The position numbers were made by a program, and so were the translations under genes. 30,085 nucleotides of DNA, taken from positions 1 to 30,085 of the IMG/VR virus record IMGVR_UViG_3300031963_000667; one strand, 5' to 3'. The notes under the pieces are model-generated. The model saw only the letters and a program-made list of their open reading frames with translations, was not told the origin of the DNA and did not search any database. The DNA is from a virus. This document shows, in pieces, positions 3,416 to 19,600 of the stretch; position 1 is the first letter of the stretch; every line of letters starts with the position of its first letter.

Positions 3416-3627
3416 TTAGTCAGTCCATAAAGGTAAGCATCGATGTCATCATTAGCACGAATAAAAGACTCTACATCTTCCAACTCGTAGAACGGTTCAC
3501 CATCCTGATCACCGAATGGATCAATCAAAGCATATTCTTCATAGTCATCACCCATACGTTGTACAAGGCTATAACCGGTGCAGTCTTGCACGGCAGCTTG
3601 TAAGTCATCAAAGGAATACGTTGTCAT
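3412..3627 (-). CDS. 71-aa acidic hypothetical early protein
   Basis: The preferred start is ATG at 3627 (MTTYSFDDLQAAVQD), because AAGGAG lies five bases before it. An upstream in-frame extension to 3678 exists but lacks such a site and overlaps the 26-aa membrane peptide gene in another frame. The product is acidic, with DPFGDQDGEPFYELEDVESF in the middle, and no known family is recognised. The gene begins inside the 3' end of the 26-aa gene and ends in an ATGA overlap with the next, so three consecutive genes share bases here. Confidence 0.7.
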   Translation of the reverse strand: MTTYSFDDLQAAVQDCTGYSLVQRMGDDYEEYALIDPFGDQDGEPFYELEDVESFIRANDDIDAYLYGLTK

Positions 3628-4675: not shown

Positions 4676-4921
4676 CTACCAGTGCTGAGAGTCCTTGATC
4701 GCAAGAGGGGGGCACTGGGGGGAAATACGAGACCCCTTGGCGATATAAGGCTTGTTAAATTTATGCCAAAAATTAAAGGACCCCCCAGCGTCACCTGAAA
4801 GGGCCTTATACTTCTTCTTAAGGTGTTTGTACCTCTGCTTAGCCTGACGCACCTTAACGGGCTTCCTAGACCCCTTAGAGTACCGCTTACCTTGTTCTCT
4901 CGGACCAGTACGACTATACAT
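4676..4921 (-). CDS. 81-aa basic hypothetical protein after thyX
   Basis: A Lys/Arg-rich protein (MYSRTGPREQGKRYSKGS..., then RQAKQRYKHLKKKYKAL) likely to bind nucleic acid. No known domain is recognised. Its start overlaps the thyX stop by eight bases (ATGTATAG), the same overlap size seen at three other junctions in this window, which supports the start. The C-terminal third is translated from runs of G and C (4702-4734 and 4781-4786) that form inverted repeats, so the real protein might end differently, or this 3' part may serve mainly as structured RNA or packaging DNA. It is the last gene before the genome-end junction. Confidence 0.55.
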   Translation of the reverse strand: MYSRTGPREQGKRYSKGSRKPVKVRQAKQRYKHLKKKYKALSGDAGGSFNFWHKFNKPYIAKGSRISPQCPPLAIKDSQHW

Positions 4922-5552
4922 GACTTAGTGCTAAACAAACACTAGGGAGATGCTCTTCTAGGAGCTTATAAGCACCTTCTGCGATCATCCTATGCTCTAG
5001 CTGTGTCCCATTACCGCACCTAAGCTGACAGTAATGAATCCAAGACCGAATAGTGCCATTCATATACAGTCGAGTAGGTGTAGCCAGCGGCAACACTTCC
5101 CTAGCACACTCCTTAGCTACCCCAGCTGCTATCATCTCTTCATAGACTGCTTGGCTATTAGCAAAGATACTTTCAATAGCAGCACTAAAGTAGTTAGTCA
5201 ACTTGCCTTCTGTATCTACCAATGACGACTGTCTGTTTGTATGATCTTGAAGACGCAGTTCAGGCATGATAGGATCTGCTGTTACTTTAGCATACCGTTG
5301 ACTGAACTCCTGAAAGCTAAAGGACCTATGCCTAAGGATCTGTGCTGCTATACTACGTGTAGTGTTAATCTCTACACACATGTTAACCATTTCAAATGGA
5401 GACCAATGTTGATGGTCAATAAGATACTTAATTAGTTTAGCACTGGTCTCAGTGTTGGATTGGTTAGCTGGATTACTAACACGTGCCATGTAACTAATAA
5501 GTTCTTCAGCGTTAGGTGTGATGTGTACAAGACTAACTGTGTGGGTGGTCAT
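4914..5552 (-). CDS. thyX: Flavin-dependent thymidylate synthase ThyX
   Basis: Makes dTMP from dUMP using methylene-tetrahydrofolate, FAD and NADPH, supplying thymidine for phage DNA synthesis in the cytoplasm. The ThyX signature RHRx7S is present as RHRSFSFQEFS (residues 74-84 from the chosen start), preceded by the typical HWSPFE segment (49-54). Later residues include TRLYMNGTIRSWIHYCQLR and EHRMIAEG, as in the family. Length 212 aa is normal. I place the start at ATG 5552 (MTTHTVSLVHITPNAEE); a start at 5582 would add ten atypical residues and enlarge the overlap with the upstream gene. ThyX is a known cyanopodovirus metabolic gene. Here it sits after the large terminase and a strong terminator, at the far right end of the genome, instead of with replication genes. 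Confidence 0.95.
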   Translation of the reverse strand: MTTHTVSLVHITPNAEELISYMARVSNPANQSNTETSAKLIKYLIDHQHWSPFEMVNMCVEINTTRSIAAQILRHRSFSFQEFSQRYAKVTADPIMPELRLQDHTNRQSSLVDTEGKLTNYFSAAIESIFANSQAVYEEMIAAGVAKECAREVLPLATPTRLYMNGTIRSWIHYCQLRCGNGTQLEHRMIAEGAYKLLEEHLPSVCLALSHV

Positions 5553-5733
5553 TTTGGTAGATAGAGGTGGCAGTGATATCATCCCATGCTGATGGGATAT
5601 AACGATTCCTAGTACTTACTGTATATTGAGAATCCAAGTAATCATCACTGACTTTAACTTGCTTTAACTCGTTAAGTGTCTTAGGGTGACGGAATTGATT
5701 ACGTAAGGGTTGCTTACGATATGTTCTGCTCAT
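5533..5733 (-). CDS. 66-aa basic hypothetical protein upstream of thyX
   Basis: A small polar protein (MSRTYRKQPLRNQFRHPKT... ending SIYQNDHPHS). The N-terminus is Arg/Lys-rich and the middle acidic (VSDDYLDSQY). From memory, short proteins starting MSRTxRxxP and containing a PSAWDD element occur in many cyanophages, with unknown role. The gene follows the hairpin and terminator cluster at 5848-5963 and overlaps thyX by 20 bases (50 if thyX starts at 5582), so the two are probably cotranscribed. No sure promoter is seen in 5734-5847. Confidence 0.7.
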   Translation of the reverse strand: MSRTYRKQPLRNQFRHPKTLNELKQVKVSDDYLDSQYTVSTRNRYIPSAWDDITATSIYQNDHPHS

Positions 5734-9582: not shown

Positions 9583-9858
9583 TTAACGAATGTGTGATAG
9601 AATAAGTGTTTCCCTACTGGTGATACCAAATGTGTCCCTCATCCATTGTAGCCAATTACTACTTCCTTTAGCCTGATTGCATTTCCTACAGCTGGGTACC
9701 AAATTTGAAGTAAGGTCTTCGCCACCAAAACACTTAGGGCGAACGTGGTCAAGTGTAAGTTCATGTAGTTCATAAGTTTCTCCGCAGTATACGCATTGAC
9801 AATTAAAGTATTCCTTAATTGCACGACGGTGTAGCCTTTTTGCTTCAGAGCTTGTCAT
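9583..9858 (-). CDS. HNH endonuclease
   Basis: A compact 91-aa HNH nuclease. From ATG 9858: CVYC zinc knuckle (C22, C25), catalytic LDHVRPKCFGGED (D37-H38), NLVPSC (N52, C57) and KCNQAKG (C60, N61). All core residues of the zinc-bound HNH fold are present, so it should be active. A longer form using TTG at 9936 (117 aa) is possible, but its extra N-terminus (PLLPSPDHYLHNL) is not typical and overlaps the upstream gene. Neither start has a clear ribosome-binding site. HNH proteins next to terminase genes assist packaging in some phages; it could also be a free-standing homing nuclease. The packaging-block position favours the first, without proof. Confidence 0.9.
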   Translation of the reverse strand: MTSSEAKRLHRRAIKEYFNCQCVYCGETYELHELTLDHVRPKCFGGEDLTSNLVPSCRKCNQAKGSSNWLQWMRDTFGITSRETLILSHIR

Positions 9859-9910
9859 CGTTATTAGGTTGTGGAGGTAGTGATCAGGACTAGGAAGTAG
9901 TGGAGTCACA

Positions 9911-10510
9911 TTACTGGAAGGGTAGAGTAATGCCAAAAATCTTCATTGGATCTTGACGCTTTAGAGTTGGTTGTGGCATCGGCTTTGGTTTAGGTGCAGC
10001 AACTGGGTACGCTTGATCTAGCTGCTGCGCATAGTTAGCCCTACGGTCATTGTGTGGTTCACCTGGTCTAAAGTATGTATTACTAAAGTACAAAGCTGCT
10101 TGTTGTGGCGTAATACCTTTAGGAGCCTTTTCAAATGATTTAGTGTAACCAACTAGTGAGTTACCATTTGGATCGTAATCACCTTTATACTCCTTTGCTA
10201 CATACTGTAGTTGAGCATCAGGGTTATTCCTATTTTGGTAACGACTAGCCCACTGATCATAAGCAACACGCCTAGCACCAGTGAATTGACCAATACCCCT
10301 ACCTTCAGCCCTACCTTGTTCAACAACATCTAATTTACTAAGATCGGGTGAGCCTGTTTCTTGAATCAAGTTAGCAGTAAAACCAATAGCTTGTTCTCTC
10401 GTTAATTTAGGAATACGGCCACCACTCCATTTAGTCATAGTGCCATCAGTAAGAAGTTTGATGGTACGTGCAATCTGCGGTGATGGTTTAATCTTTAACG
10501 GATCAGCCAT
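9911..10510 (-). CDS. Tail-lysozyme-like peptidoglycan hydrolase
   Basis: 199 residues. LTREQAIGFTANLIQETG (37-53) with candidate catalytic Glu51, followed by GRAEGRGIGQFTGARR (66-81), matches the pattern of phage tail lysozyme domains (EQAxGivgNlxqESG ... GxGiaQWtggRr). The C-terminus is Pro/Lys-rich (PKPKPMPQPTLKR). It would cleave peptidoglycan glycan strands, either in the virion or at lysis. There is no signal peptide. It starts in an 8-base overlap (ATGGCTGA) with the 84-aa gene. It is one of three glycan-cleaving enzymes encoded in this window. Family assignment is by motif and is fairly confident. Confidence 0.75.
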   Translation of the reverse strand: MADPLKIKPSPQIARTIKLLTDGTMTKWSGGRIPKLTREQAIGFTANLIQETGSPDLSKLDVVEQGRAEGRGIGQFTGARRVAYDQWASRYQNRNNPDAQLQYVAKEYKGDYDPNGNSLVGYTKSFEKAPKGITPQQAALYFSNTYFRPGEPHNDRRANYAQQLDQAYPVAAPKPKPMPQPTLKRQDPMKIFGITLPFQ

Positions 10511-10989: not shown

Positions 10990-11227
10990 TACGTAATACG
11001 ATTTGATCTAGTTTATTTTCGATGCGAATCATGTGATCCTCCATCTTTTGTAGTGCATTGGCTAGTTCTTGTCGTGGTACATACTTCTCAGCAAGACGTA
11101 ACTCAATCTCGTCAATACGTTTATCGATACGATCCATACGTGAGTTTGTTCTACTACTAAGGGAAGCTATGCCACTACCTACACCAATAACAAGGGATGC
11201 AACTCCCGTAATAATTGCCTCAACCAT
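10982..11227 (-). CDS. Membrane-anchored coiled-coil protein (spanin or holin candidate)
   Basis: 81 residues: an N-terminal hydrophobic helix (residues 2-23, VEAIITGVASLVIGVGSGIASL) followed by a charged heptad-like coiled coil (RMDRIDKRIDEIELRLAEKY and LQKMEDHMIRIENKLDQIV). This layout fits an inner-membrane spanin (Rz-like) or an accessory holin of the XhlA type. It directly follows the endolysin gene with an 8-base overlap (ATGGTTGA) and precedes the small terminase, so it belongs to the lysis group. No outer-membrane Rz1-type lipoprotein is seen nested in it. The membrane topology is clear; the exact role is inferred. Confidence 0.75.
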   Translation of the reverse strand: MVEAIITGVASLVIGVGSGIASLSSRTNSRMDRIDKRIDEIELRLAEKYVPRQELANALQKMEDHMIRIENKLDQIVLRNG

Positions 11228-12188
11228 TTTCCTTTAGTAGACGTTTTAATTTGGTGGCATATAGTGGATCAGTTGCATATCCTTCTTTCACCAACAGTTC
11301 AGCGCATTCCTCAGGTGTAGAGGCACGGTTAACTCCTTTATAGTTCTTGTAGTCCTTGTACCAGCGTTGTACTAAGTATGATACGCAGGATTGTAGATCA
11401 GGAAAGTTAAGGAAACCAGCAGTAATGGTGATCCACTTACCATCAATAAACTCTTTAGTCTCATGATCAGTACCAGAACCTTTAAGACCGAAGTAGTTAT
11501 GGGTACCAGAGGTATGTTTACCGTAGCCACTTTCTAATGCCCACTGTGCAGCTACTACTTGTGGAAACTTAGCTCCTGCCTTAGAGGCTGCAGCTATCAC
11601 TCCCTCCCAAGTGTTAGCAACAGGAGTTGATGGTTGCGGAGTATTGGTTGGACGGAAGGTCATAAACCAGCCAGTTCCTTTACCTTCTACTTCCCAACGC
11701 TTGAGCCAGTTATGCCAGGTGTACTTGACATTCTTACCACCATTGCCGATGGTAACGTAGCCACCATTAACATTATCCATTTCACCGTATGGATCATGGA
11801 AGATACCATGTTCCCCATCATCACCGATAAGGAGCATCCAGTGACCACCACCAACGGGATTGGAGACATGGCCTTTATGGAGGATACCTACAGCTACTGG
11901 GTAACCAGCTTTGAGTTCGTTGAGTAGATCCCGCCTTGTTCCTTTCTGGTAGAAGGTAGCAAACACACCGTATTGCTGACAGGCTTTTATTTGACTAGTG
12001 GAGAATGTAGTGTCACCGTATTTAAGAACTGTTCTCAAGTAATCATCATCTGCATTACTACCCTTTAGGGCATCAGGTAGGAGATATTTGACGGCCATAG
12101 CGCATGTAGAGCTAAAGCACATCCGATCTCCATGACCTGTTGCACTATCTGTCTGGGGGTAGTACTGCTTAACTTGCAGCAATACCAT
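11220..12188 (-). CDS. Endolysin: C39-type peptidase plus glucosaminidase
   Basis: A 322-residue two-domain lysis enzyme. Residues 1-178 form a C39-like papain-fold peptidase: candidate catalytic Cys24 (GDRMCFSSTCAM), His116 (VGGGHWMLLIGDD) and Asp132 (FHDPYGE). A Pro/Thr linker (179-193) leads to a glucosaminidase domain with FPQVVAAQWALESGYGKH and catalytic Glu219, ending GYATDPLYATKLKRLL. Together they should cut peptide cross-links and glycan strands of the cyanobacterial wall. There is no signal peptide, so release depends on a holin. The second domain is clearly related to one in the gp15-like virion protein at 20881-23847. The gene sits just after the holin-like gene (5 bases) and overlaps the coiled-coil membrane gene. 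Confidence 0.9.
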   Translation of the reverse strand: MVLLQVKQYYPQTDSATGHGDRMCFSSTCAMAVKYLLPDALKGSNADDDYLRTVLKYGDTTFSTSQIKACQQYGVFATFYQKGTRRDLLNELKAGYPVAVGILHKGHVSNPVGGGHWMLLIGDDGEHGIFHDPYGEMDNVNGGYVTIGNGGKNVKYTWHNWLKRWEVEGKGTGWFMTFRPTNTPQPSTPVANTWEGVIAAASKAGAKFPQVVAAQWALESGYGKHTSGTHNYFGLKGSGTDHETKEFIDGKWITITAGFLNFPDLQSCVSYLVQRWYKDYKNYKGVNRASTPEECAELLVKEGYATDPLYATKLKRLLKENG

Positions 12189-12193
12189 GATGA

Positions 12194-12400
12194 TTACTTC
12201 CCTCTAAAGGTTCGACGGATACGACGTACTGTGTCATCTTCAGTACGGATCTTACTAAAGTAAGCAGCAGCCATAGAGATGGCTTGTGTAACGCTGTTGG
12301 AGCGACGCTTCTTAGTTAGACCGAGGTACTCAGAAGCAATGAATAGGATAAAGAAGGCAAGCGTCTCATAGGACACTTTGATGCCGAGGATGGTGATCAT
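12194..12400 (-). CDS. Holin-like small membrane protein
   Basis: 68 residues with one hydrophobic helix (YETLAFFILFIASEYLGL, about 11-28), followed by a basic tail (TKKRRSNS and VRRIRRTFRGK). Size, topology and position (after the tail fibre, before the endolysin and small terminase) match T7 gp17.5, the T7 holin of 67 aa. Sequence similarity to T7 holin is not evident, so the call rests on context. A copy of its first ten codons is present at 14121-14165, and a short MTKTRDLT reading frame ends two bases before its ATG. See the scar features. Confidence 0.7.
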   Translation of the reverse strand: MITILGIKVSYETLAFFILFIASEYLGLTKKRRSNSVTQAISMAAAYFSKIRTEDDTVRRIRRTFRGK

Positions 12401-12402
12401 GG

Positions 12403-12436
12403 TTAGGTTAGGTCACGTGTTTTTGTCATAAGTTTA
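12403..12436 (-). repeat. Remnant of a tail-fibre gene start before the holin (scar M')
   Basis: Bases 12406-12436 repeat 14063-14093, the start region of the second tail fibre gene, with 3 mismatches in 31. It reads MTKTRDLT and stops at 12403, two bases before the holin ATG. It may now act as a coupled leader peptide, but its origin is best explained by recombination at the tail fibre. Confidence 0.8.
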
Positions 12437-14086
12437 GCCTTCTACTTCAACGGCAAAATAGTCATAAGTAATAGAATCAGCAGAATTAGCAGTTGTACCT
12501 GTCACGACCAAATCAATCGCTGATGCGCTAGCAAGATTGTGCGACAGTGTTCCGGCGCCCATTTCAACAACATTACCGTCTTGAATTAGTTTTCCGTTGA
12601 CACGTTGATCCGTGTTTCCGCGAATAAAGATTTCGGCTACATATTCCCACCGACCAGCGGCAGTCGTTACCAGTGCGCTCATACTCGTACCAGCAAGACC
12701 ACCAAGACGAACTCGGAAAGTCTTATTACCGGCAGTACCAGTCACATTTCCACGAGCAATAACACGGATACATTTACCAAAATAAGTTGGACCAGTAATA
12801 GTCTGGTACTCTCCAGCAGCAAGAGAGTAAGTGTACATTACGGTTTCAGTTGTGCTGCCACTAATACTCCCTGCTGTAGTTACATCACGATGGCGGACTC
12901 TGTTTGAAAGGCAGTTCTGATCAGCACCAAAGTCTTGACCAAAGGAAACGAGCCTCAGGTTTTCGGTGTTTGCATCTGCAGTTCCTACATTGAAATTACA
13001 ACCAGTTCTTAGGACGTTGCCACCCCTCATCCTGATTGCGACAGTGTTGCGCTTAAAATCAGACCCACTGGCGTTAACTCTCGAATTTACTTCGGAAGAA
13101 ATCCCAAAGTCATTATCTTCAAATGTAACGTAATCGGCGTGACCTGTAGAAGATTCTCTAGCAGAAAAACCAACAGTGCAGTTCTTTATAATAGGACCAC
13201 TACTGGTGTCCACAGCGGATCCATCACCAATGGAATGATAACAATTAAATAGAGACCTAATTCCTTCATCGCAATTCTCGATGATACCTCCAACTACTTT
13301 TAGTACACAATTACCGTATCCCACAATACCGAGATAGGCATCATTGACGTGTACATTATCAGTAAAGAGCTGCCCCTGCTCTCTAACTGCTAAGGCATAT
13401 GACGATGAGTTTGCATCATAGTTAACGAACTTTATATCTTTAACAAGAGCTTTGCTGGTTACAAATAAGAAGCCAGAAGTAGCTGGTGTTGCAGGAGAGA
13501 ATACTGCAGTAGGGACATTTGGGTGGCCACCAACATCAGGACCACTAATCAGTACTGGCTCTTGCGAAGTAAGGCCTTCTGGAAAGTTAACAGAAGTGTT
13601 TGTATAAGTTCCGGCGGCCAATAATACTTGCCAGGTACCCGATAAAACTGGTCCGTAATTAGCAAGCGCATCGAATGCCGCTTGGATAGTAGTAGGTTGA
13701 GATGAACTCAGCCCATCATTACTAGTAGTGCCAGTAGTAGCTACATAAAGTTTGTTAGAGTTAGTATCTACAGGATTCACATAGAAAGTATCTGAACCAC
13801 GTTTGACGTTGCCGGATCCTATATGCCTGACCCCGTGAAGATTAGAAATGGAAGTGTTTGTGCTGTAGGATCCACTATCCCAGAACAAGGCTTTGCCAGA
13901 TAAAAATGCGTAATTAACAGCTGCCTGAATTTCAGTAGTATCATCATCAACACCATTCCCAACAGCACCAAAATCTTTAACACTCACCACATCTTGCAGC
14001 TTGGATTCAACGGTGCGCTGCACAGCACCAGTACCGGCCTGGATGAAACCTCCACCCAGGTCGGCTAAGTCACGTGTTTTTGTCAT
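12434..14086 (-). CDS. Second tail fibre/tailspike, pectate-lyase beta-helix type
   Basis: 550 residues. A short N-terminal MTKTRDLADLGGGFIQAGTG segment leads into VESKLQDVVSVKDFGAVGNGV (about 28-48), the hallmark entry to a right-handed beta-helix of the pectate-lyase superfamily. Turns rich in Asn, Asp and Gly follow to about residue 390. The last 150 residues (SISGSTTETVMYTYSLAAGEYQ onwards) look like a beta-sandwich C-terminal module. It probably binds or cleaves host surface polysaccharide. It lacks the T7 gp17-type anchoring domain seen in the neighbouring fibre, so it must attach by another route, perhaps on the first fibre. Both flanks carry 31-base duplications showing it arrived as a cassette. 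The enzymatic residues are not evident. Confidence 0.85.
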   Translation of the reverse strand: MTKTRDLADLGGGFIQAGTGAVQRTVESKLQDVVSVKDFGAVGNGVDDDTTEIQAAVNYAFLSGKALFWDSGSYSTNTSISNLHGVRHIGSGNVKRGSDTFYVNPVDTNSNKLYVATTGTTSNDGLSSSQPTTIQAAFDALANYGPVLSGTWQVLLAAGTYTNTSVNFPEGLTSQEPVLISGPDVGGHPNVPTAVFSPATPATSGFLFVTSKALVKDIKFVNYDANSSSYALAVREQGQLFTDNVHVNDAYLGIVGYGNCVLKVVGGIIENCDEGIRSLFNCYHSIGDGSAVDTSSGPIIKNCTVGFSARESSTGHADYVTFEDNDFGISSEVNSRVNASGSDFKRNTVAIRMRGGNVLRTGCNFNVGTADANTENLRLVSFGQDFGADQNCLSNRVRHRDVTTAGSISGSTTETVMYTYSLAAGEYQTITGPTYFGKCIRVIARGNVTGTAGNKTFRVRLGGLAGTSMSALVTTAAGRWEYVAEIFIRGNTDQRVNGKLIQDGNVVEMGAGTLSHNLASASAIDLVVTGTTANSADSITYDYFAVEVEG

Positions 14087-14093
14087 TAGTTTA
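14063..14093 (-). repeat. 31-nt repeat copy M at the start of the second tail fibre
   Basis: Overlaps the ATG (14086) of the second tail fibre gene and matches 12406-12436, with differences at three positions. Together with M', it brackets the whole fibre gene as a direct repeat about 1.66 kb apart. Confidence 0.8.
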
Positions 14094-14120
14094 TCTAAAA
14101 TGGAGGTTTACGATTTAAGT

Positions 14121-14165
14121 TCACAACAAGTTAATGGACACTTTGATGCCAAGGATGGTGATCAT
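14121..14165 (-). pseudogene. Truncated copy of the holin gene start (scar H')
   Basis: Reads MITILGIKVS then diverges to INLL and stops. Bases 14136-14166 match 12371-12401 (the real holin start) with one mismatch in 31. It sits 11 bases after the first tail fibre's stop, exactly where the holin would be if the second fibre were absent. It is a duplicated fragment left when the second fibre cassette entered. Confidence 0.85.
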
Positions 14166-14176
14166 GTCTGTATACG

Positions 14177-16669
14177 TTAGATGTTATTTGCAGAGACATT
14201 GCCAGTACCAGTGCTGACATTTACGTTTGTGGTAAAGCCACGAGTCACGTTATTCCATGCGCCAGAGTAAGTGACTGTGGTCGGCGCAAAGACTACCCCG
14301 ATCGTAGTTGTCAAACCGCTAGCAGAGTAATAAACAGAGTTTCCGCTGACACTAACATATGAACATGTACCTGTAAGCCTTACTCCGTAGCCAGAAGAAC
14401 CAGAAGTGTTAGTAATTTCAACACTATTCCCACATATAACAGAAGAATTGCAGTCAGTCAAGATGATACCAACAGCACCAGCAGAAACGGAGTTGCCTGT
14501 CACCGAAGCATTGTTGGCAACAGTTACTTCAATACCACTAATGATAGTTGAAGATGACTGCTTTTGTATCGCGTTGCTTGAGACTACCGTTCTGATTGTT
14601 TTAAAACCAGACTGTCCCGTAACTCGGATGGGTTGAGCAAAAGAAATAACTCGGTTGCCACTTATTGTGCAATTAACAATATCTGCTGTTTGCGCTGTAA
14701 CAAAAATTCCGTATTCAGAAGTTTCGTCTCCAATAGAAAGCAAGGTGTTGTCGTTGACAGTGATAGTGCCCGCGCTGGCGGCTCTAGGGTTAATGTAGAT
14801 GCCCCCTGATGCTGTATTTTTGATAAAGTTGTTGGAGACAGAACCTGTTCGCGCCTCAAAATTGACGCCGTAGTTGCTGGACGAGTTTACGGTGTTGCCA
14901 ATGATGAAAATGTCTTCTGCACCTGCGTGCGTATCAATCGCATCACCACCAGTTAAACCTGTCGCTTGAGCAGAATCAGATACAACATTATTAGAAAACA
15001 AGATACGTCGCGTAATACCGTAGGAAGTAGTGGTGTTGTTATTAGTACTCAAGGAATGCCGTACATCAACAAAGGAGTTGTCAACAGCAGTGCAGTCTTG
15101 GCAAGCATCAGCAAATGAAACACCATATGCTTGAGCTGAATGGTTGGACTGCTCAAAGTGACACTTAGTGACCTTAGAAAATACGCAGTCAGTTAGTTGC
15201 ACATGTACTTTATCAATGTCATAAGACCTGATGTTTTCAATCAGGCAAGCGGATCCGGCGCGAATTCGCAGTCCCAGTATCTCGTCGTTTCCAGACGGAC
15301 CAATAATGATGCCGTTTCTTATGACAACATTCTTGACTGGCGTGATTTTTTGAACAGTTGCAGAATCGGCTGTTGTGTAACCAACTTGCGTTTCTGTCGT
15401 AATGTTCAAGGATGTGCCATTTGGTACGGATTCAACAAAAGTAAGTTCTCCACTCCTAGTGCTGGTTCTAGTTGGATCCCAAATACTATTGGAGTAAATG
15501 CGAACCATGTCACCAGTGGCAAAACCAGAAGAAGCAGCAGAAATTGTTTTGTCACCAGCTACTGCGTTTGATGTAAGAGCCACAGCAGCATCATAGGTGC
15601 CAGTAAACTGAAGAAGTGGCCCAATTTCGGCAAGGCTGAGTCCCGAAAAGTCCAACGTGGAATTCTGCAGGTCTATCTCTACATTGGACCCAGTGAACGA
15701 GCCCAACACTGCGTTGCACTTGTACTTACCACTTGGAAATACGACCTTGCTATTCGACATACTGACAGCATATGTCAGTGCCGCCTGAATAGCCGCCGTA
15801 TCATTAGCAACACCGTTACCAACCGCTCCGAAGTCTTTAACGGAGACAACATCCCTCAGCTTGCTTTCAACAGTCCTAGTGACTGCACCACTACCAGATT
15901 GATTCCAGTAGACATCCTGTGCTTGAGCTGTTGTACCAGTGTTGAGGTTATTGACGCAGATGACTTCAAGAACATCACCAGCAATAAGTGCTACATTAAG
16001 TACAATACTAGTGCCATTGTTAGCAGTGTAGTCAGCGTTACGTTGCAGTTGGGCACCATTAAGGTACACCTGCTCACGGTTAGGACTATAACCAAGGGTG
16101 CCGCCAGTCGTACCAACACCAGATAACGTTGTCTCGCCACCAACTGCAGTCTTACTCCAACGTGTAAAGCCAGGGATACCACCATTACCGGAACTTGCAT
16201 CAACATAATCCTTAGTAGCAGCATCACCACTTACAGTTGGAGTAGCTAGGTTATTAATTTGATAACCATTCATATTGAGGTTACCAACCATAGGATTGGA
16301 ACCATCAACATTAAGCGCGTTGTTGTTAACCTCTTGGGTTACATATAGGTTCTGAGTGAAGTTATCATTCAGGTCCTTTGCTCGAATGGCGGAACCAGAA
16401 GAGAAGACAGCAGACAAAGCATCATCATCAGTATCTCGAAAGATACGAATAGAGGCTCCGTTAGCAGGGGCGTTACCCGCAGTAAACAGGACTTGACCAC
16501 CAGTCTTTGTCGTATAGTTAAGGCTCTGAAGGTTATAGTGAGTACCAGCTGTTTTCAGTACACCACCAACACTTACCTTAATATCAGTAGATTCAAGCCA
16601 TTTAAAGGTAAAAGAGAAGGGTCCTAAGTTGGACCCATTACCAGTGAATGTATTTTGTGTAGTTGCCAT
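14177..16669 (-). CDS. Tail fibre with T7 gp17-type anchor and beta-helix body
   Basis: 830 residues. The first 115 residues form the phage T7 tail fibre anchoring domain: TFTGNGSNLGPFSFTFKWL, a GASIRIFRDTD segment and SAIRAKDLNDNFTQNLYV, matching T7 gp17 patterns (LRAYDLN). Then comes a linker repeat region (NPMVGNLNMNGYQINNLATP). VESKLRDVVSVKDFGAVGNGV (about 267-287) opens a pectate-lyase-type beta-helix running nearly to the end, with many NxVxxN turns. It is the primary receptor-binding protein attached to the tail tube. It follows the gp16-like gene by six bases. The beta-helix entry segment is nearly the same as in the second fibre, a natural crossover point. Confidence 0.92.
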   Translation of the reverse strand: MATTQNTFTGNGSNLGPFSFTFKWLESTDIKVSVGGVLKTAGTHYNLQSLNYTTKTGGQVLFTAGNAPANGASIRIFRDTDDDALSAVFSSGSAIRAKDLNDNFTQNLYVTQEVNNNALNVDGSNPMVGNLNMNGYQINNLATPTVSGDAATKDYVDASSGNGGIPGFTRWSKTAVGGETTLSGVGTTGGTLGYSPNREQVYLNGAQLQRNADYTANNGTSIVLNVALIAGDVLEVICVNNLNTGTTAQAQDVYWNQSGSGAVTRTVESKLRDVVSVKDFGAVGNGVANDTAAIQAALTYAVSMSNSKVVFPSGKYKCNAVLGSFTGSNVEIDLQNSTLDFSGLSLAEIGPLLQFTGTYDAAVALTSNAVAGDKTISAASSGFATGDMVRIYSNSIWDPTRTSTRSGELTFVESVPNGTSLNITTETQVGYTTADSATVQKITPVKNVVIRNGIIIGPSGNDEILGLRIRAGSACLIENIRSYDIDKVHVQLTDCVFSKVTKCHFEQSNHSAQAYGVSFADACQDCTAVDNSFVDVRHSLSTNNNTTTSYGITRRILFSNNVVSDSAQATGLTGGDAIDTHAGAEDIFIIGNTVNSSSNYGVNFEARTGSVSNNFIKNTASGGIYINPRAASAGTITVNDNTLLSIGDETSEYGIFVTAQTADIVNCTISGNRVISFAQPIRVTGQSGFKTIRTVVSSNAIQKQSSSTIISGIEVTVANNASVTGNSVSAGAVGIILTDCNSSVICGNSVEITNTSGSSGYGVRLTGTCSYVSVSGNSVYYSASGLTTTIGVVFAPTTVTYSGAWNNVTRGFTTNVNVSTGTGNVSANNI

Positions 16670-16675
16670 TTAGGG

Positions 16676-19600
16676 TTATCGGTACATTTGGGTTAGTCGC
16701 TCAATCTCTGCTTTACGACGATCAGCAGCCCTGGCAGCATCATCAATACGACCCTGTTTCATAAGGTTCTTATTGGTCAGGGATTCTTGAATAGAACGCC
16801 ACATCGGTTCATTCTCTTGCTGCATACGCATCTCAGCTGCCTTTTGGGCTTGAGACATGATATCATTCATCACTGAATAAACTTCACTTTGAGCTGCTTG
16901 GATCTCCTCAGATGGACGACCTTGAACACGCATAGCACGAATACGATCTAGTTGATCGTTATACTTCTTGTTCTTACTAAGCTTATCAAATTCCTTCCAC
17001 AGTTGTTGCTCACCGATGTACTTATACAGTACTTCACGTTCCTGTGGGGTGTACTCGTGGTTACCAGTACTATCCTTACGAATCATCTGTACACCATCCC
17101 AACCACTATCAATAAGCCATTGTCTCCAAGGTTCTGTACCTTCACTGATCTTAACTGGATTAACAGCATTAAGAGCACGAAGTACGGGGTTATCAATATC
17201 ATTAAGTGGTTTACCAGTGTAGATATCAATCTGCTCTGGAAGCTGACTGGAGAAACCAGGCAGTCTGTTTTTAACATAACCTATAAGGTCATTGTAGATA
17301 TCCTTCTGAGAACTGGTAATGGCACTATTGACAACACCAAGAGCACCAGACATAGGAATAGCAGATCGTGCTTCATTAGCAAGGAACCGAGTAATAGCTG
17401 TCTCATCACCATCAGCAACGGCAACGACAGGCTCAAGACCAGCCACCCAAGACTTGTTCACAAAGGTAGCAGAAAGTGTCCATGCCAGCTTTTTAACAAA
17501 GTCTTCGGTTAAGGTAGAGCCAATATCGCGTGAGTAATAAGCTAGGTCACCAACAAGAGTAAGAATAGTGTCGAGAGGTTCATAACCAGCATAACTGACC
17601 CACTTACCAGCAACATTGATGGTCTTAGGTTGCCAACCAAAGTTATCACGAAGCTTCTTACGCTCACCAGCATTAACAGGACCATTGCCACGGATATTAC
17701 CACCAAGGGCATAGCCAAGCATAGAGGAAGATAGCAGTGCACCAAAGGCTACACGACCACGGTATTCAGCCTCAAGGCCCTTGAAGATAGCCATACCGTT
17801 AGGTACACCATCATAAGAAATGTTGTGCTCCATAAGAGCATCTTTGATCTTGTCGATGTCGTCACCAGCCCACAGTACTTTAGAGTACCTGTTCATGCCA
17901 GGAAGAGTAGCGATAGGTGTATAAGACATAGCCGCCTTAACACCATTAACGCCAGTCTTTGGGAACATGAAGAATGGCTTTAAGATAGGTAGTTTGTTGA
18001 TACCACGAGTCAACCAAGTAGCAGTCTCATCATCCAGATTAAGGGAAATCTCTCCAGCAGCATTCTTAGCAGCAGCATCAGTGAGATTACCAAGAGCATC
18101 AAAGGACTCATCATAGGCAATCTTTTCAGCCTTGGCTAGCTGTTGAGCCAGTTCAGCACCTTTGTAACCAATACCATAAACCTCATCCCAAGCCCTAGCA
18201 CGAGCTAGTTGAGAAGCAACAGTAGTCTGTACAAAGGCATCAGCACTAATCATTGCATTAGTACCATACTTAAACCAACGCCAGTTACCAAGGTCATACA
18301 AGAACCTAGCAGACCTGTATTGGAAGAGACGACCCCAGTTACCATCCTTTTCCCATACCTGTTCCATATCGGCCAAGGTATCCCAAAGGTTAGGGTTGTA
18401 GTCAGTAACAAGGTCTTCACGTGCTAGTTCACGGAAGTCCATAGTTGCATCATTACCCCACTTACCGTTATTCCATGTACGTTTAAAGGTATCCCAGGAA
18501 TCAGTAAGTGCTCGTTTGTTAACTTGCCAGAATGAACCGTAAACATGGGTAGCTTTACGGAGATCATCAACCGTATTACGACCCATCAACATACCAATGC
18601 CAGTACCAAGGAGTGCATTGTTAGTACGAAGGGTAAGTGCAACAGTGTTGCCAGTAATAGCTTTGAGTGCTGAGATACCAGACAACATGTTGTTGTAACG
18701 TACTGCCCACACACCTTGTGCAAAAGCATTCAGACCTTCATCACCACTCTTAAGGAGACCCATGGGGCTAAGTTGCTTAGCACTCCACTTCATCAGTTTA
18801 TCAAGAGAGTCCACATCACCCTTAGACAATGCAAATGCATCAATTAAAGGTTGAGCAGCATCAGGACGATCCCTAGCAATAGTCCTAATCATATCCCGAT
18901 AGCCTTGGGCTTGGAGATTCTTCTCTTGTACCTTAAGGTCAAACTGTTCAGTAATCTGTCGAATAGCAGTCTCCTTATCAGGTGACTCCTTGAGAAACTT
19001 CTGCCAACGATCTTGGTTCTTAAGCGCCCAACCTGCGATGTACTTATTGAGAGCATACTCTTCCATAAGGAAGGCGAGGCGATCACCAAGCATCTCAGTA
19101 GTACGGCTAAGGTCAGCACTCTCAGGGAATGCTTTATAGCCCTCAGCAATATCGGCAATCTCACGTCCTACGGTATCCATAGCACGAGCTGATGTTTCAG
19201 TAACAACTTGACCGATGTATTTATCAGTCAACTCACGCATAGCATAGCCGATAGCTTCCGCTTGAACATCATTGACATACTTAATGGAGCGACCATCAAG
19301 GAGGTTCTTAACATCACGATTATCAAGGAAGAGGTTCTTGAGATCAGATACCTTATCCGTACCGATGATGTCATTGTAGATCTTCCAGGCACCATCACTC
19401 ATCTGAGCTTTGGTGTACCTAAAACCATCGACAATAGCATCAAAGCTACCAGTAGCACGAGTACCTTCAGCCAGGTCTTCAATGAGGTTACGCGATACAG
19501 CATTACCTTTACTAAGGTCATAGTAGGCACGCTCAGAAAGGATAGGAGCAGGGGTACCACCACTGTTACCAAGTTTGATAGCAGTAGTGTCTGCCATGTT

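Follow-up and report, generated by a model that had tools for sequence, protein, structure and literature searches.

The locus lies on the minus strand of a 30-kb virus record (IMGVR_UViG_3300031963_000667; the whole stretch analysed, 30,085 nucleotides, is referred to as the window), whose nearest isolates are T7-like Synechococcus phages, among them the lake phage DSL-LC07 and the estuarine phages S-CBP1/3/4. In the direction of transcription, a first tail fibre gene (fibre 1) is followed by a short sequence H', a 49-nt spacer, a second fibre gene (fibre 2) that starts within M, a second short sequence M', a holin-like gene that starts within H, and an endolysin gene. The features are as follows.

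14177-16669, minus strand: fibre 1, 830 aa; PF03906 at residues 5-158 and PF12708; phrog match to tail fibre/spike
14136-14166, minus strand: H', stub of the start of the holin-like gene; 30/31 match to 12371-12401
14087-14135, minus strand: spacer from H' to the fibre 2 start; the copy in L166 is identical but for 1 nt
14063-14093, minus strand: M, the fibre 2 start region; conserved, apparently handle-like 5' end of M-type fibre genes
12434-14086, minus strand: fibre 2, a 550-aa pectate-lyase-like tail spike; PF12708 and phrog_27277 (tail spike)
12406-12436, minus strand: M', stub of the start of a third fibre gene; 28/31 match to M
12404-12406, no strand: joint lacking the ~1.98-kb fibre 3 body that L153 has, from the window-L153 alignment
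12371-12401, minus strand: H, the intact start of the holin-like gene, from the repeat match
12194-12400, minus strand: holin-like gene, 68 aa; phrog_15106 (unknown function); adjoins the endolysin gene
11220-12188, minus strand: endolysin with a glucosaminidase domain, the conserved right flank; PF01832 and phrog_10051

Fibre 1 consists of a T7-type N-terminal adapter and a pectate-lyase-like body, and the fibre 2 protein begins MTKTRDLADLGGGFIQ. No Pfam family matched the 68-aa protein, whose sole match was phrog_15106; its position and size suggest the name holin. Elsewhere in the window, ORFs at 4914-5582 and 9583-9936 resemble, as judged by translation, ThyX thymidylate synthase and an HNH endonuclease, respectively.

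The initial annotation had reported two 31-nt duplications bracketing fibre 2 in the order H'-M-fibre-M'-H, and both the repeats and their order on the minus strand were confirmed. The H/H' direct repeat (12371-12401 and 14136-14166) matched at 30 of 31 nt (97%), and the M/M' direct repeat (12406-12436 and 14063-14093) at 28 of 31 nt (90%). These were the sole repeat families with greater than 88% identity within 11500-16800, and both are far above chance, the expectation for ungapped 31-nt pairs in ~5.3 kb being 4e-10 at one mismatch or fewer and 5e-7 at three or fewer. The start codon and the first ~7-10 codons of a gene were covered by the repeat in every copy. H' is a dead-end frame of 14 codons, MITILGIKVSINLL followed by a stop, and M' a frame of 8 codons, MTKTRDLT followed by a stop. 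Since the repeats span the start codon and the next 7-10 codons, H' and M' are gene beginnings without the rest of the gene.

Besides the window, the full H'-M-fibre2-M'-H order was found only in L010, whose sequence matches this stretch at 100% and which may be the same assembly, as would be expected if an assembly artefact had duplicated short junction sequences. However, other samples gave independent contigs with each half of the arrangement: the H'-spacer-M block in L166, fibre 2 with M in L153, and M' beside the holin-like gene in many. An artefact is therefore extremely improbable.

Fibre number among related phages

A viral contig collection was scanned with the holin-like protein and the endolysin, yielding more than 100 loci. 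Many arrangements were found at this place, among them fibre1-holin with no second fibre (e.g., L018, L019, L020, L024, L038, and L040), fibre1-M'-holin (L008, L009, L016, L027, L033, L047, and L064), and fibre1-M-fibre2-holin (L012, L013, L014, L017, L023, L026, L028, L054, L055, and L078-L080). Other loci, L151, L159, L168, and L187, have the order fibre1-M-fibre2-M'-holin. Relatives without the second fibre, which the initial annotation had proposed to look for, thus exist, with 14 distinct one-fibre loci in the holin-anchored set, and the outcome it had named as speaking against an insertion scar did not occur. M' was not particular to two-fibre genomes, as it occurred in many one-fibre genomes too. 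Within the holin-anchored set, M' was present in 7 of 14 distinct one-fibre loci and in 1 of 14 two-fibre loci, this one being the window (Fisher p 0.033), a contrast that weakened to p 0.067 once M-anchored two-fibre loci were added.

On a 25-row tree of the right flank, fibre number changed at least 9 times, and shuffled labels gave no more changes (mean, 8.6), so that fibre number was unclustered. The presence of M' changed 7 times on the same tree. In the pairs L021/L054 and L014/L019, flanks that were 94-97% identical accompanied different fibre numbers. The flank tree and these near-identical-flank pairs indicate that fibres are gained and lost quickly compared with the rate at which the neighbouring genes diverge. 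In these genome comparisons, gain and loss was apparent between lineages, not inside one population.

Relatives of the fibre 1 body were sought among viral contigs, and only the window's own contig was recovered, so that no direct empty site was obtained. In the loci fetched from the isolates S-CBP1/3/4, DSL-LC07, S-SRP01, and P60, the holin-like gene was kept and M and M' were absent. No M start was detected in bacterial and archaeal genomes.

Several other arrangements were observed at this locus. A separate two-fibre design (L030, L031, L048, L052, L056, L065, L071, L076, and L077) has a large second gene ending QYARAR or NYARAR and, immediately upstream of the holin-like gene, a ~182-aa gene (MFILNNQPLS...DTLIFN). 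A split first fibre occurs in L012, L023, L026, L054, L055, and L078, in which a ~326-aa adapter ending HSNNSI is followed at once by an M-fibre, in place of a single long fibre 1. Small genes of 84-108 aa lie between the fibre and holin-like genes in L047 (6673-6972), L014 (5214-5480), L018 (6735-6998), and others; they share a C-terminal KTLPEFxxAxDC (phrog_18037, unknown function) and vary in the rest, and in many cases a TGATG overlap joins their stop to the start of the next gene. These proteins may be fibre chaperones, and their genes may form a second conserved boundary. Between the holin-like and endolysin genes, CTKCGE-type HNH-like genes are present in L064 (7210-7674), L079 (3438-3848), and L003 (6702-7112); homing endonucleases beside a hypervariable fibre locus could promote exchange.

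Origin of M'

The source of M' was indicated by L153, which carries a fibre 2 homologue (93% DNA identity over 1576 nt) and, directly behind its stop, a complete 658-aa fibre 3 with an M start, followed by the holin-like gene. The window-L153 alignment was uninterrupted to base 1588, 8 codons into fibre 3, and resumed at 3564, before the holin start. Because the window aligns to L153 without the fibre 3 body, M' corresponds to the opening 7-8 codons of a fibre gene without its body. The initial annotation had suggested that an earlier neighbouring fibre was deleted between M copies. A missing neighbour is supported by fibre 3 of L153, but the site between M copies is not; the missing gene is the downstream fibre 3, and its probable loss ran from the M start to the holin start.

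Stubs of other lengths precede the holin-like gene in L027, L168, L161, and L179. These varying lengths suggest that fibre collapse before the holin-like gene probably occurred repeatedly. In L178 (6659-6955), a truncated M-fibre of 98 codons precedes the holin-like gene and looks like a halfway stage in the loss of a fibre.

In 14 distinct loci, M' was located 25-30 nt upstream of the holin-like gene, usually with its frame ending within 0-6 nt of the holin start. The M' core (16-18 nt) was nearly intact, and the next 8-11 nt varied. This regular placement, with a core better conserved than the tail, is what would be expected if M' (and H') were a conserved leader, such as a short upstream frame coupling translation of the holin-like gene to the preceding gene. 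However, the M' start codon is lost in L064, M' is frameshifted in L187, and H' of L166 has an in-frame TAG. Further, M' is absent from half of the one-fibre and most of the two-fibre relatives, and a search for leader signals revealed no Rfam RNA family, no unusual fold, and no promoter excess. A leader function is thus improbable. The persistence of the M' core could reflect either constraint or recombination with intact M starts that keeps it homogeneous.

The initial annotation also raised a natural host-range switching module, in which M x M' recombination would regularly delete fibre 2 within one population and so change host range. Direct repeats matching at 28/31 nt are present, and fibre1-M'-holin is the product expected from M x M' recombination in loci with the order of L151, L159, L168, and L187. 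However, the product predicted for the window, fibre1-H'-M'-holin, was absent from all fetched loci, and no near-identical pair was seen to differ by fibre 2 deletion alone. In addition, a match of 28/31 nt is short for recombination to be frequent, and without a donor the loss would be irreversible. The module was therefore not borne out, and we regard an active switch as very unlikely.

A shared start among fibre genes

M-type fibre genes have many different bodies and upstream genes around a conserved start. In pairwise comparisons among 13 holin-anchored genomes, the silent-site difference between M-fibres was 3% at codons 21-30 and 9% at codons 11-20, and it was 0.24-0.40 just downstream (0.40 at codons 38-50). 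The silent difference of the holin-like gene in the same 13 genomes was 0.26-0.38. At codons 2-10 of the M-fibres it was 0.25, or 0.08 without the mosaic 5' variants L054 and L055. Loci found by an exact 16-nt core DNA scan, which is biased for an intact core, were left out of this test. Since the 5' ~90 nt is nearly invariant even at silent sites, it has, from sequence comparison, the look of a handle for recombination that these genes share. At codon 10, a first 30 nt existing in two versions was joined to a following segment, also in two versions, in all four combinations (22, 5, 4, and 2 cases), a direct sign of recombination near this codon.

A near-invariant M start would also be consistent with M' being a pre-existing landing site for M-fibres that arrive by homologous recombination, in which case L153 would be derived and the window older at that junction. 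As such a site would predict, M and the M' core are identical, and one-fibre genomes commonly have M'-holin joints. However, M' is a truncated coding start, so the loss of an M-fibre at that place must have come first, and the differing stub lengths of L161, L179, L168, and L027 suggest several separate losses. We therefore consider this order of events unlikely, though less so than a leader function.

M stubs were also found in contigs of other phage types (L155, L160, L170, L175, and L188), and M or H' stubs adjoin other fibre-like genes in these five and in L182 and L185. L188 encodes a major tail protein and is thus probably from a longer-tailed phage. These findings suggest that fibre cassettes move between phage types with their junctions carried along.

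The surroundings of these stubs differed. In L155, L160, L170, L175, and L188, the M stubs lie upstream of an unrelated gene beginning MA(N/S)IKISEL, and L155 also has an H stub of 15 codons. L182 (at 11782) and L185 (at 6968) represent another phage type, which has a dCMP deaminase gene; in both, a fibre-like gene is followed by an M stub of 29 codons (MTKTRDLADLGGGFIQ...RTVEGD, then a stop). No isolate relative was found for the L185 protein tested.

Origin of H'

In L166, the same H'-spacer-M block as in the window was found behind a different fibre 1. H' of L166 is broken by a frameshift and has a 2-nt insertion and the in-frame TAG. H'-M joints of other make-up precede second fibres in L025 and in L158/L164; a loosened search for the H'-M pattern matched L158, L164, L193 (the L025 contig), and L010. 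At the joints of L166, L025, and L158/L164, the holin-like gene is cut 9-10 codons in. The joints of L025 and L158/L164 are independent ones. The recurrence of H'-M joints before second fibres in L166, L025, and L158/L164 supports the suggestion in the initial annotation that a fibre cassette was inserted at the fibre1-holin junction. The 49-nt spacer is possibly the end of the donor gene that preceded M; among the fetched loci, no donor for it was found besides L166.

Discussion

We consider it probable that H' and M' are passive footprints, left in a T7-like cyanophage lineage by the gain and loss of tail fibre genes in the space that separates fibre 1 from the holin-like gene. For the gain, a fragment comprising a donor gene end, M, fibre 2, and further sequence through the holin-like gene would have joined a recipient fibre1-holin genome. 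The left joint would have fallen ~30 nt into the recipient holin gene, leaving H', and the right crossover would have taken place in conserved holin/endolysin DNA, restoring an intact holin gene. For the loss, a third M-fibre would have collapsed to its first 7-8 codons beside the holin start, leaving M'. There are two reasons why breakpoints could cluster near gene starts: joints that damage the neighbouring genes would not survive, and the near-identical first ~90 nt of M-fibres would serve as a homologous handle. The comparison with dozens of water-borne relatives shows very frequent swapping at this spot, probably because all these genes have nearly the same DNA at their beginning. A single gain and a single loss, both ordinary steps, would then account for the gene order. 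We infer which way each step ran, that homologous recombination brought it about, and that host range may have changed.

Some observations weigh against this history. No fibre1-holin ancestor specific to the window was found, as the body of its fibre 1 is unique, and a purely decaying scar would not keep the M' core over its tail, barring homogenisation or constraint. A broader proposal, which we hold tentatively and think rather less likely than otherwise, is that the M-type start (~20-90 nt) is a shared mobile module, its identity maintained by recombination across podovirus-like and longer-tailed phages, with M' copies as landing pads for fibre re-acquisition. If so, the locus would be a natural plug-in system for receptor-binding genes.

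Whether neat gene-boundary joints arise by boundary homology or by random joining with selection is an old open question (PMC3233612). Stub length, spacer, and decay can be counted at this locus across many environmental genomes, so that the question can be tested there in an abundant group of phages, and GACAAAAACACGTGAC offers a simple marker for fibre gains and losses in metagenomes. In a literature search of partial coverage, no paper was found on gene-start stubs at this locus.

Phage mosaicism has been explained by two models, recombination at short conserved boundary sequences and illegitimate recombination with selection (PMC3233612). As in boundary-sequence mosaicism, exchange points here lie at gene boundaries with short shared sequence, and the flanking genes differ. 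Unlike in that description (PMC3233612), the exchanged gene's own coding start forms the boundary sequence, and stubs record past joints. Modular exchange of tail fibre and tailspike genes is described, in the portions of the sources covered, for T7-like phages such as Klebsiella phages (PMC8262889), and hypervariable tail fibres with a conserved N-terminus for marine phages, including pelagiphages (PMC3909814). The present locus resembles these accounts in that the PF03906 adapter is kept, the bodies are hypervariable, and each phage has at least one receptor-binding gene. It differs from what those portions describe in that the second fibre has its own start (MTKTRDLADLGGGFIQ), whose DNA is nearly invariant and common to several phage types. 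Metaviromic islands, recognised by under-recruitment of reads, likewise involve host-recognition genes that vary among otherwise similar marine phages, whereas junction stubs and a shared 5' handle are features seen here and absent from the part of that description covered (PMC3909814). Incongruent fibre genes have been reported in cyanopodoviruses (PMC4646655).

In contrast to the flanking inverted repeats of a Mu/P1-type invertible switch, both repeat pairs found at the fibre in the window are direct. At the T-even distal tail fibre locus, which Tetart et al. are said to have described in 1998, adhesins reportedly swap by recombination between conserved motifs. Both loci would use conserved motifs as recombination points for variable receptor-binding segments; however, T-even exchange occurs within distal fibre and adhesin genes, whereas whole genes are gained and lost at the window locus. 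The process is thus a known one, receptor-binding cassette mosaicism, and its unusual part here is that the footprints can still be read.
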